Part shown: in pieces, positions 32,493-41,340 of the stretch
Numbering within the stretch: the first letter of the stretch is position 1
Layout of the letters: each line of letters starts with the position of its first letter
Assembly (NCBI RefSeq): GCF_000143845.1
Contig: NC_014363.1
Location: forward strand, 1,845,186 to 1,909,185
Direction of reading: 5' to 3'
Length of the DNA stretch: 64,000 nucleotides
Source of the DNA: Olsenella uli DSM 7084
GTDB taxonomy: Bacteria; Actinomycetota; Coriobacteriia; Coriobacteriales; Atopobiaceae
Notes under the pieces: generated by a model
The model's database searches: none
What the model saw: only the letters and a program-made list of their open reading frames with translations
What the model was told of the DNA's origin: nothing
Position numbers and translations under genes: made by a program

Positions 32493-33506
32493 ATGCCCGT
32501 CATCCTTACATACCTACTCGTGTTCGCCCTCGTCGCAGACGCCATCTTCGTCGCAGCGCTCGTCATCCTGCGCAGGCGAGGCGTCTACCTACGTCTTCGC
32601 TCCAAGTTTGGGCCAATCATGGTCTTTGACTCGACGGATGATGACGGGGTGCCCGTGCGCCTGCTCAACGTGGGGGGCAAGTTCCAATCGGTAGGCTACG
32701 TAGACGAGGGGCTGCGCTACGAGTTGGCCTGCGTCTATCACCGCTACTTCGCGGAGATCCTCTCCATCGCGGCAAACCCGGGGAGTGTCGCAGAGAGGGC
32801 CGCTGGACGCGGAGTCCCGGAACGCAGTACCACGGGACGCGACGGCACGGGATGCGACGTGGCGCACGACGCTGGGTCCGACAACGCAGGGTCCGACAAC
32901 GCAGGGCAGAACCTGGGACAAGAACGGCCTTGGTCAGGAGATGCCCTGGTCATAGGGGGTGGCGGCTACTCGTTCCCCAAGTGGCTCGTGGCCCACTGTC
33001 CCCAGGCACGGGTCACGGTGGTGGAGATAGATCCCGTGATCTCGGACATCGCGCGCAGGCGCTTCTTCCTGGACGACCTGATCCGCGACTTTGGCGCAAC
33101 GCCAGGCGACGCCCACGCAACGCCGAGCGACACCTCGCCGGGCCGCCTACGACTCGTCTGCGATGACGGGTGGGCATATCTGCGTGGATGTGGCTGCCAC
33201 TTCGACCTCATCGTAAACGACGCATTTGGCGGCAGGAAGCCACTGGGACCCCTCAAGACCAGCGAGGGCGCACGCAGCGTGCGAGAACATCTCAGCGAGC
33301 ACGGCATCTACCTGGCAAACGTGATCTCCGCACTCGAGGGAAAGAGGGCCAGGCCGCTTGAGGAGAGCCTTGCGGCATGCAAGGGTACCTTCGCGCACGT
33401 CTACCTCATTCCAGAGCGCCCCGAAGAGCCCGAGCGCGAGGGAGACAACGTCCTGATTGCCAGCCAGCTGCGCCTTTCCATCCAGAAGTGCTACGCAGTT
33501 CAGTAG
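32493..33506 (+). CDS. Spermidine-synthase-like methyltransferase-fold protein with N-terminal membrane helix
   Basis: 337 residues. An N-terminal helix (LTYLLVFALVADAIFVAALV) anchors it. From about 150 it has the Rossmann SAM-binding fold of the polyamine synthase family: ALVIGGGGYSFPKWL, then VTVVEIDPVISDIARRRF, then FDLIVNDAFGG. Residues about 100-145 are a low-complexity insertion in which 15 bp (GGTCCGACAACGCAG) is doubled. The reaction is uncertain because the family includes real aminopropyltransferases and relatives of unknown role. Transcribed alone, opposite to tatA. Confidence 0.65.
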   Translation: MPVILTYLLVFALVADAIFVAALVILRRRGVYLRLRSKFGPIMVFDSTDDDGVPVRLLNVGGKFQSVGYVDEGLRYELACVYHRYFAEILSIAANPGSVAERAAGRGVPERSTTGRDGTGCDVAHDAGSDNAGSDNAGQNLGQERPWSGDALVIGGGGYSFPKWLVAHCPQARVTVVEIDPVISDIARRRFFLDDLIRDFGATPGDAHATPSDTSPGRLRLVCDDGWAYLRGCGCHFDLIVNDAFGGRKPLGPLKTSEGARSVREHLSEHGIYLANVISALEGKRARPLEESLAACKGTFAHVYLIPERPEEPEREGDNVLIASQLRLSIQKCYAVQ

Positions 33507-35029: not shown

Positions 35030-35833
35030 TCAACATGCCGCGTGACGGCGGAAGACTAGATAGGTGTTGAGATTGCCCGTACGGCCATCGGACGAGAAGC
35101 GCTCCCGGACGGTCGAGAGGTCCGACACGGCGTCCACGAGAGCCGTTATCCCGTCCGCATCGAAGCTGTGGCAGTAGCGCCAGACGTCGGGAAGCCCCTG
35201 CCATCCCACCAGATAGTCATCGGCGTCGAGATCGCTGGGGGCCAAGCCCAGCGACCCGAGGGCCTCGACGGTAGTTTCGCGCGCACGCCGCGCAAGCCTG
35301 GGGCTGTTCATGAACTGCCAGAGCGAAACGGCACAGGTTCCCCCGGGACGCGTCGCGCCGAGCAACGCCCGAAGGAGGGCAACCCGTGCCGCCCAGGTGG
35401 GCACATGGTGCATGAACCCAAAGCAGACCGTCAGATCCGCGGGGGCAGACGCGGGTGCAGGGAACGCCAGCGGGACACCATTGAGGAGTCGTTCCACCAG
35501 ATCGATTTGGGTGAAGTCAACCTTCCAGGGAAGCGGAGGGGCGCAGCGGCGGACAAGCGACGGACAACTGTCGACCGCGCAATAGGCGACCCGTGCCGGT
35601 ACGGGCGACGATGCCATCCTAGATGCAAGGTAGGTGCCAAAACGCAGGTTCCCGCAGGCCACGTCCAAGACGGAGAGCGTCGATGGCGTTGCGGTCACGG
35701 CAATGCCGGCAAGGGAGACCACCCTCCCCCACCCCGGCCATGGTGCCTGGCGCGTCTGGCAGAACGAGCTGGCCTGGGCTCGGTAGAACTCCGCGTTCAG
35801 GCTGTTCATGCGACGTGCGACGTCAGTGTTCAT
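35030..35833 (-). CDS. Trm9-like class I SAM methyltransferase (probable tRNA wobble-uridine modification)
   Basis: 267 residues. The N-terminus EFYRAQASSFCQTRQAPWPG matches the Trm9/ALKBH8 hallmark (FSxTRxxPWP). Motif I is VLDVACGNLRFG, and VCFGFMHHVPT follows. Near the C-terminus DDYLVGWQGL and WRYCHSFDADGITALVD match the Trm9 LVPW ... RYYHxF block. In eukaryotes Trm9 methylates cm5U34 to mcm5U34 in tRNA. Start ATG 35833 is chosen where homology begins. The divergent neighbour is Elp3, the enzyme that makes cm5U34. Function is inferred from motifs and this pairing. Confidence 0.72.
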   Translation of the reverse strand: MNTDVARRMNSLNAEFYRAQASSFCQTRQAPWPGWGRVVSLAGIAVTATPSTLSVLDVACGNLRFGTYLASRMASSPVPARVAYCAVDSCPSLVRRCAPPLPWKVDFTQIDLVERLLNGVPLAFPAPASAPADLTVCFGFMHHVPTWAARVALLRALLGATRPGGTCAVSLWQFMNSPRLARRARETTVEALGSLGLAPSDLDADDYLVGWQGLPDVWRYCHSFDADGITALVDAVSDLSTVRERFSSDGRTGNLNTYLVFRRHAAC

Positions 35834-36008
35834 GTAGCCTCGGCGCTTCGTGGTAGAGCCGCGCCCCCCTCCCCTCCAGGTGCTCGGCAGCGCGCAGTCG
35901 GTGTCGGCAGCGCACATGTGGTTGACGCTGACGGCACCCATGGCGCTACGATGCCAACAGTATGAACCGTCGACACGGCGGCGGGACCAGACGTGAGGGG
36001 GCATCACC

Positions 36009-36014
36009 TATAAT
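36009..36014 (+). promoter_or_regulatory. -10 box of elp3
   Basis: Perfect TATAAT 36 bp upstream of the elp3 start. The -35 position (about 35986) is not consensus. Confidence 0.45.
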
Positions 36015-36049
36015 TGCGCCCCACGGAGAGTCCCGTACGGAGAGGCCGC

Positions 36050-37972
36050 ATGGAAGACTTCCTGCTGGACATACTCGATCACCTGCGCTCGCTGCCACCG
36101 GAGCGGGCGGGCGATGCCTTGGCCCCGCTGGAGCTGGACGCCATCTGGCGCCGGCACAACCGTGGCGCGCGCGAAGGTGACAGGCGCCTCTCCAAGCGCT
36201 TCATCCTGCCCTTCTACCAGCGAACAAAGCAGCGGGACCCCATACGCTGGACCAGCTGGAACGTCGACGCCACGCTGGAGGAGCGCCTGGTGCGCACCAT
36301 TCGCATGAAGCCGCGCCGCACGGCCTCGGGCGTGGCCACCATCACGGTCATCACCAGGCCGCAGGCCTGCTCCAGCGACTGCCTGTACTGTCCCTGCGAC
36401 CTGCGCATGCCCAAGAGCTACCTGGCAGGGGAGCCTGCCTGCCAGCGTGCGGAGCACAACTTCTTCGACCCCTACCTGCAGGTGGCCTCACGCCTGCGCG
36501 CCCTCTCGCAGATGGGCCACTCCGTCGACAAGGTCGAGCTCATCATCCTGGGTGGCACTTGGAGCGACTACCCGCGCGCCTACCAGATCTGGTTCGTGCG
36601 CGAGCTGTTCCGTGCGCTCAACGACTGGCCCATTGCGGACGAGGCGCTACGCCGACGTTACGGCAGCTACCGAGAGCTGGGGCTCACGAACGACGCCACA
36701 CGGCTGGCAGCCTTCGTCGCACCTCAGCAGGCCCTGGTCGACCGGGGCGAGAAGAGCTACAACGACGCGCTGCGCGACCTCTACCGGGAAAGCCGCCCCC
36801 ACCGGGCTGCGGCCAAGCGCATGGGCGCGACCCTGGACGGGCTTGCGACGGAGCAGCTGCGCAACGAGTGCGCTTCCCACCGCGTCGTGGGCCTGGCGAT
36901 AGAGACGCGCCCGGACCTGATAACGCCTGCATCACTCACGCTGTTTCGGCAGTTGGGCTGCACCAAGATCCAGATGGGCATCCAGTCCACCCGCCAGGAG
37001 ACCCTGGACGCCAACGGACGCCGGACAAGCATCGAACAGGTCAGGCGGTCCTTCTCGCTCATTCGCCTCTTTGGCTTCAAGATACACGCCCACCTGATGG
37101 TGAACCTGCTGGGCTCCACACCGGAGTCCGACAAGGAGGACTTCCGCACCTTCGTGAGCGACCCCGGCTTCCTTCCCGACGAGATCAAGCTCTATCCCTG
37201 CGCGCTGGTCGCAGGCACGAGGCTGGTCCGTCTCTTCGAGCGGGGCGCATGGCGCCCCTACGACCGAGAGGAGCTTGTCGACGTGCTCGCGAGCGATGTG
37301 CTGGCCACGCCACCGTACGTCCGCATCTCGCGCATGATCCGCGACATCAGCGCGGGAGACATACTGGTGGGCAACAAGCACACCAACCTGCGCCAGATGG
37401 TCGAGGGTCAGATCCGGCGCGACGGGACGGCGAAGGGCGTACGCGAGGTTCGCTTCAGGGAGATCTCGCTGGACGCCGTCGACCTGGGCTCCCTGGCCCT
37501 GGACGACGTCACGTACCAGACCGCCGTCACGGACGAGCACTTCCTGCAGTGGGTCACGCCCGAGGGGCGCATCGCGGGCTTTTGTCGGCTGTCGCTGCCA
37601 CATTGGAGGGAGCTTGCTGCGAGCGACGCGACCGCAGCGGCAGGCGGCGCAACGTCGGTCGAGAGGGACGAGGCCGATGTTGATGGGGGTGCCGACGTGC
37701 AGGCCGAAGTGCGGGCCAGCGAGCTGCCAGTCGAGCCCGGCGAGGCCATGATCCGCGAGGTCCACGTATACGGCCAGGCCGCCCGCCTGGGAAAGGCGGA
37801 TGCTGCGGCCCAGCACCAGGGGTTGGGCCGCGCGCTCGTGGAACGCGCCTGCGGCATCGCCCGCAGCGCGGGGTACACACACGTCAACGTCATCAGCTCC
37901 GTGGGCACGCGCGCGTACTACCGGCGTCTGGGGTTTACGGACGTGGGGCTGTACCAGCGCAGGGGTCTATAG
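36050..37972 (+). CDS. Bacterial Elp3: radical-SAM/GNAT tRNA U34 carboxymethyl-synthesis enzyme
   Basis: 640 residues. The radical-SAM domain has CSSDCLYCP (about 115-123) and the family blocks FFDPYLQVASRLRALSQMGH then SVDKVELIILGGTWSDYP; the C-terminal acetyltransferase domain has QHQGLGRALVERACGIARSA and VISSVGTRAYYRRLGF. A loop of about 45 residues rich in Ala, Glu and Asp (about 525-570) interrupts the GNAT part. Elp3 homologues use acetyl-CoA and SAM to add the cm5 group to U34; bacterial and archaeal ones work without Elp1/2/4/5/6, none of which is here. Start ATG 36050 with AGAGG upstream; a TTG at 36014 overlaps the -10 box. Divergent from the Trm9-like gene. Confidence 0.9.
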   Translation: MEDFLLDILDHLRSLPPERAGDALAPLELDAIWRRHNRGAREGDRRLSKRFILPFYQRTKQRDPIRWTSWNVDATLEERLVRTIRMKPRRTASGVATITVITRPQACSSDCLYCPCDLRMPKSYLAGEPACQRAEHNFFDPYLQVASRLRALSQMGHSVDKVELIILGGTWSDYPRAYQIWFVRELFRALNDWPIADEALRRRYGSYRELGLTNDATRLAAFVAPQQALVDRGEKSYNDALRDLYRESRPHRAAAKRMGATLDGLATEQLRNECASHRVVGLAIETRPDLITPASLTLFRQLGCTKIQMGIQSTRQETLDANGRRTSIEQVRRSFSLIRLFGFKIHAHLMVNLLGSTPESDKEDFRTFVSDPGFLPDEIKLYPCALVAGTRLVRLFERGAWRPYDREELVDVLASDVLATPPYVRISRMIRDISAGDILVGNKHTNLRQMVEGQIRRDGTAKGVREVRFREISLDAVDLGSLALDDVTYQTAVTDEHFLQWVTPEGRIAGFCRLSLPHWRELAASDATAAAGGATSVERDEADVDGGADVQAEVRASELPVEPGEAMIREVHVYGQAARLGKADAAAQHQGLGRALVERACGIARSAGYTHVNVISSVGTRAYYRRLGFTDVGLYQRRGL

Positions 37973-38462: not shown

Positions 38463-39141
38463 TTGCGCTTGCAAAGACAGCCATTCAGGAAGACGAGCAT
38501 GTCGCAGCAGGTGGGCAAACGAGTGCCGAGAGAAACCTCAGTAGCAGACGGCCCCTTGCCCGTAAAGCCCTCCTTGCCATTTCAATCATCGTCCTTCTCC
38601 TTTCCTCGCTGCCCCTCGACGCCGTAGCATGGCTGCAAAGGGATGTGGGGTGGCGCGGAATGGCTTTCACTGCTCGCGCAACTGGTTGTATTCGGATTGG
38701 CTGAGAGCGGGTTAGCCTTCCTCGGCATCTGGGGATGGCTTGTCTTTCTTGTCTTGGGTTTGGGCGCAGCCCACGTTCTCGCACCAAGGCATGTCAGCCG
38801 TATCCGACGCCTTCCCTTCGCGGCAAGCGCCATCATGTTCTCCATAGCAGGCTTCCTGATAGCGTTGTGCACAGGGACAGTGGCCGTCGAGGCCGCTATT
38901 GCGGACTCCCACACCTTCGTCTCCGTTGCTTTGGCGCTATTCTCTGCCGTGCCGCTGATATGCCTCATCATGACGCGAGAGTCTGACGCCATCCCATTGG
39001 AAAGGCTCTGCGCCGGAGAAAATGTCGCCACCATTGCCGACGGGCTTTGTTTGGCCCGCAGCACAGTGGCGACGTACAGGAAGAGCGTCTACCGAAAGGC
39101 TGGCGTGCACTCTCAGTGCGGGCTCGTCACTCTTGTCGGAA
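38463..39141 (+). pseudogene. LuxR-type membrane regulator, broken (fragment B)
   Basis: Continues from fragment A: a linker, then hydrophobic helices (LLAISIIVLLLSSLPLDAVA; after a frameshift near 38643-38646 EWLSLLAQLVVFGLAESGLA, then FAASAIMFSIAGFLIAL, then FVSVALALFSAVPLICLIM) and a second LuxR HTH (ERLCAGENVATIADGLCLAR, then STVATYRKSVYRKAG). It runs into the GAAGTGAGTAC repeat, which provides its apparent end. Whether A and B were one protein with two HTH domains or two genes is unclear. Confidence 0.55.
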
Positions 39142-39162
39142 GTGAGCGAAGTGAGCGCTTGT

Positions 39163-39292
39163 CGGAAGTGAGTACTTTTTCGGCCTTTCCAGGGACACTT
39201 CGCATCCATCAGACGCATATCTCCGAGATCTCCGCAGGTACAGGAGTTGCCAAAATTATCCGAAGTGAGTACCGGTGCACACTTCGGATAAT
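39163..39292. repeat. GAAGTGAGTAC repeat family, copy B
   Basis: Starts CGGAAGTGAGTACTTTTT, contains ATCTCCGCAGGTA (39228-39240), and ends in a perfect 13-bp hairpin ATTATCCGAAGTG / CACTTCGGATAAT (39255-39292, 12-nt loop). Same blocks and spacing as copy A at 10951. Preceded by a short AGTGAGCG tandem (39140-39158). The downstream stretch 39293-39459 is GC-rich with CCCGGGGCCCGCCGC-like tandem repeats and no gene. Confidence 0.75.
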
Positions 39293-39459
39293 CACGACGC
39301 GCCCGGGGCCCGCCGCACGCGGGGCCCGCCGCGCCCCCACGACGCGCCCGGGGCCCGCCGCGCCCCCACGGCACACGCGAGGCCCACCACACGAGCAACC
39401 TGCCTCGCGCATGCGCCCATGCGCTTGCCCATCCGCTGCCATGGGCGCTCCGCCGACCC

Positions 39460-41340
39460 CTATGCAAACTGGCTCTGGTAGAGCTCCGCGTAGGCGCCAC
39501 CCCGGGCCATAAGCTCCTCGTGCGTGCCCTGCTCGATGATGGTGCCGTGATCCATGACCAGGATCAGGTCGGCATCCACGATCGTCGAGAGGCGATGGGC
39601 GATCACGAAGCTCGTACGGTTCTCCATGATGGCCTCCATCGCGCGGGTGATGTACTGCTCCGTGCGCGTGTCGACGCTCGAGGTGGCCTCGTCCAGGATG
39701 AGCATCGCGGGGTCCGTCAGCATGGCGCGGGCGATGGTCAGCAGCTGGCGCTGGCCCTGGCTCAGGCCCTCCGCATCATCGGAGAGCATCGTGTCGTAGC
39801 CTTGTGGCAACGTGCGCACAAAGAAGTCGACGCGCGCGGCACGCGCGGCAGCCTCCACCTCCTCACGGGTGGCCCCGGGCTTGCCATAAGCGATGTTCTC
39901 GGCGATCGTGCCCTCGAACAGCCAGGCGTCCTGCAGCACCATGCCAAACTCGCGACGCAGGTCGGCACGGGTCATGGCGCGCGTGTCCACGCCGTCGAGC
40001 GTGATTCTCCCGCCATTGGTCTCGTAGAAGCGCATGAGCAGATTGATGAGGGTCGTCTTGCCTGCGCCCGTGGCGCCGACGACGGCCACCTTCTGCCCCG
40101 GCTCCGCCACGAGGCTCACGTCACGCATGAGCGGCTTGTCCGGAGAGTAGCCAAAGCGCACGTGCTCGAACGCGACACGGCCACGCACGGGCCCCGCCAG
40201 CACAACGGGCAGCTGGGGATCGGGCTCCACCTCGTCCTCGTCGAGCAGGGAAAACACGCGCTCAGCCGCAGCGAGGGCTCCCTGCAGCATGTTGACCGTG
40301 AGCGACAGTTGCGTGAGCGGCTCGGACGCCTGCGTGATGTACTGGAAGAACGCCTGGAAGCGTCCCACGCTCAGGCGGCCCACGATCAGCATGCCGCCGG
40401 CCAGCAAGGCGATGCACACCTGGGAAAGTCGGACCAGAAACCGAATCGCGGGCGCGATGGCGTTGGTCAGGAAGTCTGCCCACGCACTCGCGCGGGCCAG
40501 ATCCCGTGCCACGGAGCTGATGGAGTCCAGGCTCGCGTCCTCACGGCCGAAGGCCTTGATGATCGCACGCCCCGTGTAGGCCTCCTCGACCTTGCCCGTC
40601 AGATCGCCCAAGATGGCCTGGCGGCGGCCATAGGCGTCAAGCGTCTTGCCGGCGGCGACCTTGGTCAGCGCGAACGAGAGCGCCATGAACGTGCAGAACA
40701 GTCCCGTCAGCACAAGGTCGAAGGTCGCCATCATGATGACGGCGCCGACGAGCGTGGCGAAGCTGATGATGAGCTGCAGCAAGCCGCGCTGCAGGACCTC
40801 GGAGATCTTGTCAAGGTCGTTCGTGGCGCGACTGATGGTGTCGCCCGGCTGATGGGCATCGTAGTACGAGAGGGGTAGGCGCCCGGCCTTCTCGCCTATG
40901 CGCTTGCGCAGGTCCAAGTTCAGACGTTCGGCGAAGCTCGACATGACCAGCGACTGGATGCTGTAGAACAGCCAGGCCGCGGTCCAGACGCCCAGAAGGC
41001 CCAGGATCTGCAGGCCGCCACTGTCCCAGCCGACCGAAAACTCCCGCCCCGCGGCGAACGACTCCTGGATGCAGACCCACAGGAAGTCGAGCAGGTATGC
41101 GCTGTATGCAGGTGCCGCGAGGCTGCAGGCCACATAGAGCACGGCGCTCGCGGCCGCAACGACGAGACGCCAGCGCTCACCCGTTGCCGCCCGCCACAGG
41201 CGAACCGCAGTGCGCAGCGCGTCCGCAGGGACCTCGGATTCCCCGTCCCCCACTGGCCTCCCCACGGGCCCGAGGCCCTCGGTCGGCTCGGGCCCCTCGG
41301 TCGGCTCGACGGCCCCCTCGTCGCTACGCACGTGCGCCAC
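39460..41340 (-). CDS. ABC exporter half-transporter (canonical ATPase partner)
   Basis: 626 residues, type IV exporter layout: about 45 residues of Pro/Glu/Gly-rich leader, six membrane helices (about 60-330) and an ATPase domain with VVGATGAGKTTL (Walker A), LSQGQRQLL (signature, LSQGQ for LSGGQ) and LILDEATSSVD (Walker B, catalytic Glu present). GTG start at 41340, overlapping the end of the upstream gene by 17 nt. It pairs with that gene's product as a heterodimer. Substrate unknown; MarR-linked pairs often export drugs or toxic compounds. Last gene of the marR operon. Confidence 0.88.
   Translation of the reverse strand: MAHVRSDEGAVEPTEGPEPTEGLGPVGRPVGDGESEVPADALRTAVRLWRAATGERWRLVVAAASAVLYVACSLAAPAYSAYLLDFLWVCIQESFAAGREFSVGWDSGGLQILGLLGVWTAAWLFYSIQSLVMSSFAERLNLDLRKRIGEKAGRLPLSYYDAHQPGDTISRATNDLDKISEVLQRGLLQLIISFATLVGAVIMMATFDLVLTGLFCTFMALSFALTKVAAGKTLDAYGRRQAILGDLTGKVEEAYTGRAIIKAFGREDASLDSISSVARDLARASAWADFLTNAIAPAIRFLVRLSQVCIALLAGGMLIVGRLSVGRFQAFFQYITQASEPLTQLSLTVNMLQGALAAAERVFSLLDEDEVEPDPQLPVVLAGPVRGRVAFEHVRFGYSPDKPLMRDVSLVAEPGQKVAVVGATGAGKTTLINLLMRFYETNGGRITLDGVDTRAMTRADLRREFGMVLQDAWLFEGTIAENIAYGKPGATREEVEAAARAARVDFFVRTLPQGYDTMLSDDAEGLSQGQRQLLTIARAMLTDPAMLILDEATSSVDTRTEQYITRAMEAIMENRTSFVIAHRLSTIVDADLILVMDHGTIIEQGTHEELMARGGAYAELYQSQFA

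Follow-up and report, generated by a model that had tools for sequence, protein, structure and literature searches.

Within a 64,000-nucleotide stretch of the Olsenella uli DSM 7084 genome (contig NC_014363.1, positions 1,845,186 to 1,909,185; hereafter the window), two divergent genes encode an Elp3 protein and a predicted Trm9-type methyltransferase. An earlier note on this DNA had proposed that the two form a two-gene route to 5-methoxycarbonylmethyluridine at the tRNA wobble position (mcm5U34). Our analysis supports this proposal as a prediction: Trm9 is the best solved relative of the methyltransferase, and the two genes show near-perfect co-conservation. The features of the locus, in window positions, are as follows.

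35030..35833, minus strand: Trm9-type class I S-adenosylmethionine (SAM)-dependent methyltransferase of 267 amino acids (aa), beginning MNTDVARRMNSLNAEFY (open reading frame, conserved family, 5cm2 profile match, AlphaFold2 model).
35834..36049, no strand: intergenic region of 216 bp between the divergent start codons (sequence).
36050..37972, plus strand: Elp3, 640 aa, with radical SAM and GNAT (KAT) domains (TIGR01211, PF16199, PF04055, PF00583).
36368..36391, plus strand: [4Fe-4S] cysteines C107, C111 and C114 (CX3CX2C) of the Elp3 radical SAM domain (alignment).
36632..36832, plus strand: insertion of about 67 aa in the Elp3 radical SAM domain, approximately residues 195-261 (alignment; borders approximate).

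Both open reading frames are intact, the methyltransferase frame spanning 35030-36007 on the minus strand and the Elp3 frame 36014-37972 on the plus strand. The ATG at 35833, where the homologues begin, is very probably the start codon of the methyltransferase; for Elp3 the most probable one is the ATG at 36050, which has GGAGAGG upstream and is favored over a TTG at 36014. Counted from these preferred starts, 216 bp separate the two start codons, and this interval is a probable shared promoter region for both genes. We looked for a sigma-70 consensus in the 216-bp region and found none.

The window Elp3 scores 372.5 bits against TIGR01211, the NCBIfam ELP3 model (curated cut-off 350 bits), over both the radical SAM and GNAT domains, and matches Elp3 crystal structures with E 5e-73. 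In an alignment of 72 Coriobacteriia and seven other Elp3s, the three [4Fe-4S] cysteines are invariant. The residues E285, K380 and Y382 correspond to E207, K302 and Y304 of M. infernus (Min) Elp3, which are needed for activity (PMC13315578), and all three are kept in the 72 Coriobacteriia homologues save one sequence that is gapped at the lysine and tyrosine. With the family cut-off passed and the Fe-S cysteines and catalytic Glu, Lys and Tyr in place, the divergent neighbor is the intact radical-SAM/GNAT Elp3 that the earlier note had described. The insertion of about 67 aa is present in the Coriobacteriia Elp3s that we inspected and is missing from the alignment's six archaeal-type Elp3s of other actinobacteria (see below). 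A Natrinema Elp3 carries a different, shorter insertion.

We surveyed 248 Coriobacteriia genomes for the two genes, and found both in 138, Elp3 only in 2, the methyltransferase only in none, and neither in 108. The 138 genomes with the methyltransferase are a subset of the 140 with Elp3, and each gene occurs in 59 of the 110 genera, these being identical for the two. In each of the two Elp3-only genomes, Elp3 lies near a contig end. By genome, Fisher's test gives p = 2e-69 for the co-occurrence, a value that overstates the association because the genomes are related. In one genus (g4), a single genome (G056) is without either gene and the four other sampled congeners have both. Two complete, single-contig genomes keep both genes at unlinked positions, 243 kb apart in G134 and 78 kb apart in G162, which argues that co-retention of the pair is more than physical linkage. 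The earlier note had named a lack of co-conservation with Elp3 as an outcome that would refute the proposal; the counts above, together with six of six genomes in a second, deeply diverged actinobacterial set, speak for co-conservation. Its statement that bacterial Elp3 homologues are uncommon needs changing for Coriobacteriia, with Elp3 in 140 of the 248 genomes.

The two genes are also neighbors in most of the class, a frequency that the earlier note had suggested counting. Elp3 lies within the flank of the methyltransferase gene at 75 of 80 named loci and is divergent in 73, with a median gap of about 105 bp. Where the gap widens to 1-4 kb, the intervening genes appear by eye to encode rubrerythrin-like, Fur-like, transporter-like and transposase-like proteins. 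Because these looked unrelated, we do not propose a third pathway component.

Several irregular loci were also noted. On contig C9 of G039 (L152, 3539-5300), all that is left of the pair is a C-terminal portion of the methyltransferase and, across about 0.4 kb, Elp3 residues 203-640; a single deletion across the shared divergent start region may have taken the N-terminal parts of both genes, or the assembly may be at fault. A second methyltransferase match away from the Elp3-linked copy was found in G058 (on C4 and C6, full length) and in G229 (on C1, partial), and these are duplicates or remnants. A metagenome-assembled genome labeled Propionibacteriaceae (L075) carries a Coriobacteriia-type methyltransferase with a neighboring Elp3, and its label may be wrong.

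Against Pfam, the window methyltransferase gives only generic methyltransferase domains below cut-off, and it has no match in NCBIfam. For the identity of METHYLTRANSFERASE, we searched a profile built from 27 Coriobacteriia homologues (A1) against all PDB sequences. Yarrowia Trm9 (5cm2) came first with E 1.7e-6, and the second match stood at 3.4e-3. A combined, broader profile gave 5cm2 at E 4.6e-17 and its runner-up at 1.1e-9, with an alignment that extends to the RYxH motif. The haloarchaeal protein P0001, which has the same motifs, likewise has 5cm2 as its top PDB match (E 1.3e-16), identifying it as a Trm9 relative; the Coriobacteriia profile matches P0001 at 3.2e-15 and a control methyltransferase without the motifs at 4.8e-8. 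Placement of the methyltransferase in an unrelated family had been named beforehand as an outcome that would refute the proposal, and the profile searches instead return Trm9 as its best solved relative.

Conservation within the family is highest in the N-terminal segment FCQTRQAPWPGW and the C-terminal segment DYLVGW...WRYCHSF...GNLNTYLV. Among the 27 homologues, F16, Y17, F24, T27, R28, W32, G34 and W35 are invariant at the N-terminus, H142 and H143 in the core, and D206, W211, R219, C221, H222 and N256 at the C-terminus. The Trm9 N-terminal hallmark and C-terminal block recognized in the earlier note are real, since their columns are invariant in the family, and we reject chance as their explanation. 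Yeast Trm9 needs R29, H115, R241, Y243 and N271 (PMC5372719). By alignment, four of these five have counterparts: R29 as R28, H115 as H142/H143, R241 as R219, and N271 as N256, a counterpart that rests on a short C-terminal alignment.

An Elp3 search across the phylum identified six deep-branching Actinomycetota outside Coriobacteriia whose Elp3 is of archaeal type and scores about 600 bits; we refer to these six as the bridge genomes. At L123, L124 and L125, a shorter and much clearer Trm9 homologue adjoins Elp3; its motifs in L124 read SETRLFPWKDI, IPWKKRDG, QRYCHAF and SNIYLV. A profile search detected a full-length Trm9-type methyltransferase in all six bridge genomes (E 8e-49 or better); in their Elp3-less relatives, the matches were all partial and generic. 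The pair is adjacent and divergent in all four bridge genomes whose contigs reach that far, the contig ending first in the other two. The Coriobacteriia profile aligns with one bridge protein along its entire length (hhalign, 2.1e-21), and this protein in turn matches Trm9 5cm2 at 1.2e-16, in an alignment that takes in the C-terminal RYxH motif. The bridge enzymes and Trm9 are firmly grouped (99/89) in a tree for which methyltransferases of viral contigs served as outgroup. The viral contigs hold 52 related methyltransferases, and among the best 25 of the 52, which we examined, none has both TRxxxW and RYxH; no Elp3 was found in viral contigs.

The genomic context of the pair bears on the wobble-uridine pathways of most bacteria. 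MnmG is present in one of the 248 Coriobacteriia genomes, by a search that was positive in nine known bacteria. The sole MnmG carrier, G071 (L039), is without the Elp3 pair. Neither MnmE nor MnmG passed its cut-off in the O. uli genome or in the six bridge genomes, the MnmE matches being confined to the GTPase region. CmoB was found in none of the 248 genomes, with a positive control in E. coli; uridine 5-oxyacetic acid (cmo5U) made through CmoB is therefore not expected in the class. MnmA is present in the O. uli genome, which also encodes U34 tRNAs for Lys-UUU, Glu-UUC, Gln-UUG, Arg-UCU, Gly-UCC and Leu-UAA. In yeast, the mcm5U substrates are tRNA Lys-UUU, Glu-UUC, Gln-UUG, Arg-UCU and Gly-UCC (PMC5372719).

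We consider it likely that the pair gives bacteria a minimal route to mcm5U34 that needs two enzymes. Elp3 would use acetate derived from acetyl-coenzyme A (acetyl-CoA), together with radical SAM chemistry, to carboxymethylate the wobble uridine at C5 (yielding 5-carboxymethyluridine, cm5U34) without the other Elongator subunits, on tRNAs such as Lys-UUU, Glu-UUC, Gln-UUG, Arg-UCU and Gly-UCC. Close homology and the conserved catalytic residues are our reasons for assigning this step. The methyltransferase would then esterify the cm5U34 carboxylate to give mcm5U34, acting without Trm112, a step assigned because of its Trm9-type homology and its co-conservation with Elp3. Where MnmA acts, it would add a 2-thio group to yield 5-methoxycarbonylmethyl-2-thiouridine (mcm5s2U34) in some tRNAs. 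The pair would take the place held in most bacteria by MnmE/MnmG and 5-carboxymethylaminomethyluridine (cmnm5U). The sequences show the two enzymes with their conserved residues, their co-occurrence and neighborhood, and the lack of MnmE and MnmG in O. uli and of MnmG in almost all of the class; from these we infer the activities, the order of the steps, the product and the substrate tRNAs.

Several observations weigh against this assignment. Eukaryotic Trm9 requires Trm112, and the complete 2.05-Mb O. uli genome gives no Trm112 match (none at E 0.01), extending to the whole genome the absence that had been noted for the window. Across the class, no stand-alone Trm112 of about 60 aa is evident; the matches there cover short stretches, most of them embedded in the open frames (about 300-1100 aa) of other proteins, and we reject Trm112 as a hidden partner for this reason. 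With no stand-alone Trm112, the Coriobacteriia methyltransferase would be autonomous or would work with another partner. Where yeast Trm9 has Y243, the Coriobacteriia enzyme has an invariant cysteine (C221), so its pocket differs from that of Trm9; the bridge proteins, which group firmly with Trm9, also have Cys, or Phe, there. In the tree, which has few outgroups and long branches, the Coriobacteriia branch joins Trm9 and the bridge enzymes weakly (82/45) on a branch of length 1.85, and for this reason the enzyme is best called Trm9-type, divergent. Its AlphaFold2 model shows a class I fold with high confidence (predicted local distance difference test score, pLDDT, 92.9). Foldseek puts Trm9 in second place for this model, and VIA-align puts METTL6 and N-terminal methyltransferases on top, with 5cm2 not among the best 50 rows. 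The modeled fold is generic and does not discriminate between methyltransferase families; because the two rankings disagree on Trm9, we reject fold comparison alone as uninformative for identification. In Elp3, the extra segment of about 67 aa suggests that the tRNA contacts of the Coriobacteriia protein may differ. Given the divergence of the methyltransferase and the lack of Trm112, its substrate is the main uncertainty.

That uncertainty leaves room for a reading in which Elp3 makes cm5U34 and the methyltransferase targets another position in the same tRNAs, or a protein, the two genes being inherited together through serving the same tRNAs. The divergent active site (Y243 to Cys), the long branch and a generic fold to which other RNA and protein methyltransferases are close are all compatible with such a target. 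We nevertheless think this reading unlikely, since one-to-one co-occurrence persists when the genes are unlinked, the Trm9 residues that orient cm5U34 are conserved, and six deep-branching actinobacteria whose enzyme groups firmly with Trm9 have the same pairing. A pathway outside tRNA altogether, such as modification of a metabolite or a protein by both enzymes, strikes us as very improbable. Histone acetyltransferase is a historical label of Elp3, and the activities of both proteins in these bacteria are predicted ones, which lends this idea some footing; yet tRNA is the only trigger of acetyl-CoA hydrolysis by bacterial, archaeal and yeast Elp3 (PMC6367351), the Elp3 catalytic residues are kept, the partner is Trm9-type, and MnmE/MnmG is absent. 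Least probable in our judgment is a CmoM-like enzyme that methylates the carboxyl group of cmo5U34 and sits beside Elp3 incidentally. The class I fold is common to CmoM and the Cmo enzymes, and CmoM appears at rank 42 among the fold matches, but the absence of CmoB from all 248 genomes and the strict tie of the methyltransferase to Elp3 argue against it.

Two other genes near the pair in the window were noted. At 32493-33506 lies a spermidine-synthase-like protein that resembles the fused major facilitator superfamily (MFS)/spermidine synthase family without the MFS part, and at 38643-39512 a LuxR-type helix-turn-helix protein with a hydrophobic N-terminal region adjoins the Elp3 gene.

Returning to the two-enzyme route to mcm5U34, a 2017 review reports no detectable bacterial homologues of Trm112-dependent methyltransferases (PMC5372719), and a 2020 review gives mcm5U as a nucleoside of archaea and eukaryotes, not of bacteria (PMC7694415). 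Another 2020 review gives Dehalococcoides as the sole bacterial clade with Elp3, direct evidence for the product there being lacking (PMC7663514); a 2026 paper places Elp3 in numerous bacteria (PMC13315578). We found no description of a bacterial Elp3-Trm9 pair in the open-access literature; subscription papers and preprints fell outside this search, which makes priority uncertain. The tRNA modification predicted from the pair is one that had not been assigned to bacteria before. As the pair is widespread in Coriobacteriia, among which are cultured gut and oral bacteria, cm5U-derived nucleosides in bacteria become a directly testable question. With somewhat less assurance than for the route itself, we regard it as fairly probable that Coriobacteriia and some deep-branching Actinomycetota, which are cultivable, make mcm5(s2)U34, a nucleoside of eukaryotic/archaeal type, through no more than two dedicated enzymes, Elp3 and a Trm112-independent Trm9, that replace MnmE/MnmG. 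The pair would then be a case of MnmE/MnmG replacement by an Elongator-type route, and would offer a small system in which the chemistry of Elongator and Trm9 can be studied free of Trm112 and the accessory subunits.

Among known systems, the MnmE-MnmG pathway (with MnmC or MnmL/MnmM) to cmnm5U and 5-methylaminomethyluridine (mnm5U34) modifies the same C5 of the wobble uridine and has the same decoding role, but its enzymes are unrelated to the Elp3/Trm9-type pair, and MnmG is missing from 247 of the 248 Coriobacteriia genomes. The Elp3 of Dehalococcoides mccartyi (DmcElp3) is a bacterial stand-alone Elp3 with a solved structure (E about 1e-69 against the window Elp3); unlike Coriobacteriia Elp3, it has an archaeal-like sequence, and the literature that we found does not describe a partner methyltransferase. 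Archaea such as Haloferax and Sulfolobus likewise combine a stand-alone Elp3 with a Trm9-type methyltransferase, sometimes in a cluster, as in S. solfataricus (PMC5372719). Descriptions of archaeal Trm9 have it together with Trm112 or fused to it, whereas the Coriobacteriia enzymes fall on a divergent branch of their own and their genes are usually in divergent orientation. In eukaryotes, Elongator (Elp1-6) and Trm9-Trm112 or ALKBH8-TRMT112 carry out the same two chemical steps that we predict for the Coriobacteriia pair. The pair keeps the Elp3 catalytic residues and the Trm9 motifs (TRxxxW, HH, RYxH and the C-terminal N), and differs from the eukaryotic pathway in being bacterial, in comprising two genes, in having no stand-alone Trm112 and in the change of Trm9 Y243 to Cys. 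Elp1-2 and Elp4-6 are not expected in bacteria, and no search was aimed at them. Judged by its sequences, the pair is probably the core of the Elongator/Trm9 pathway, cut down in bacteria to two genes that probably act without Trm112.

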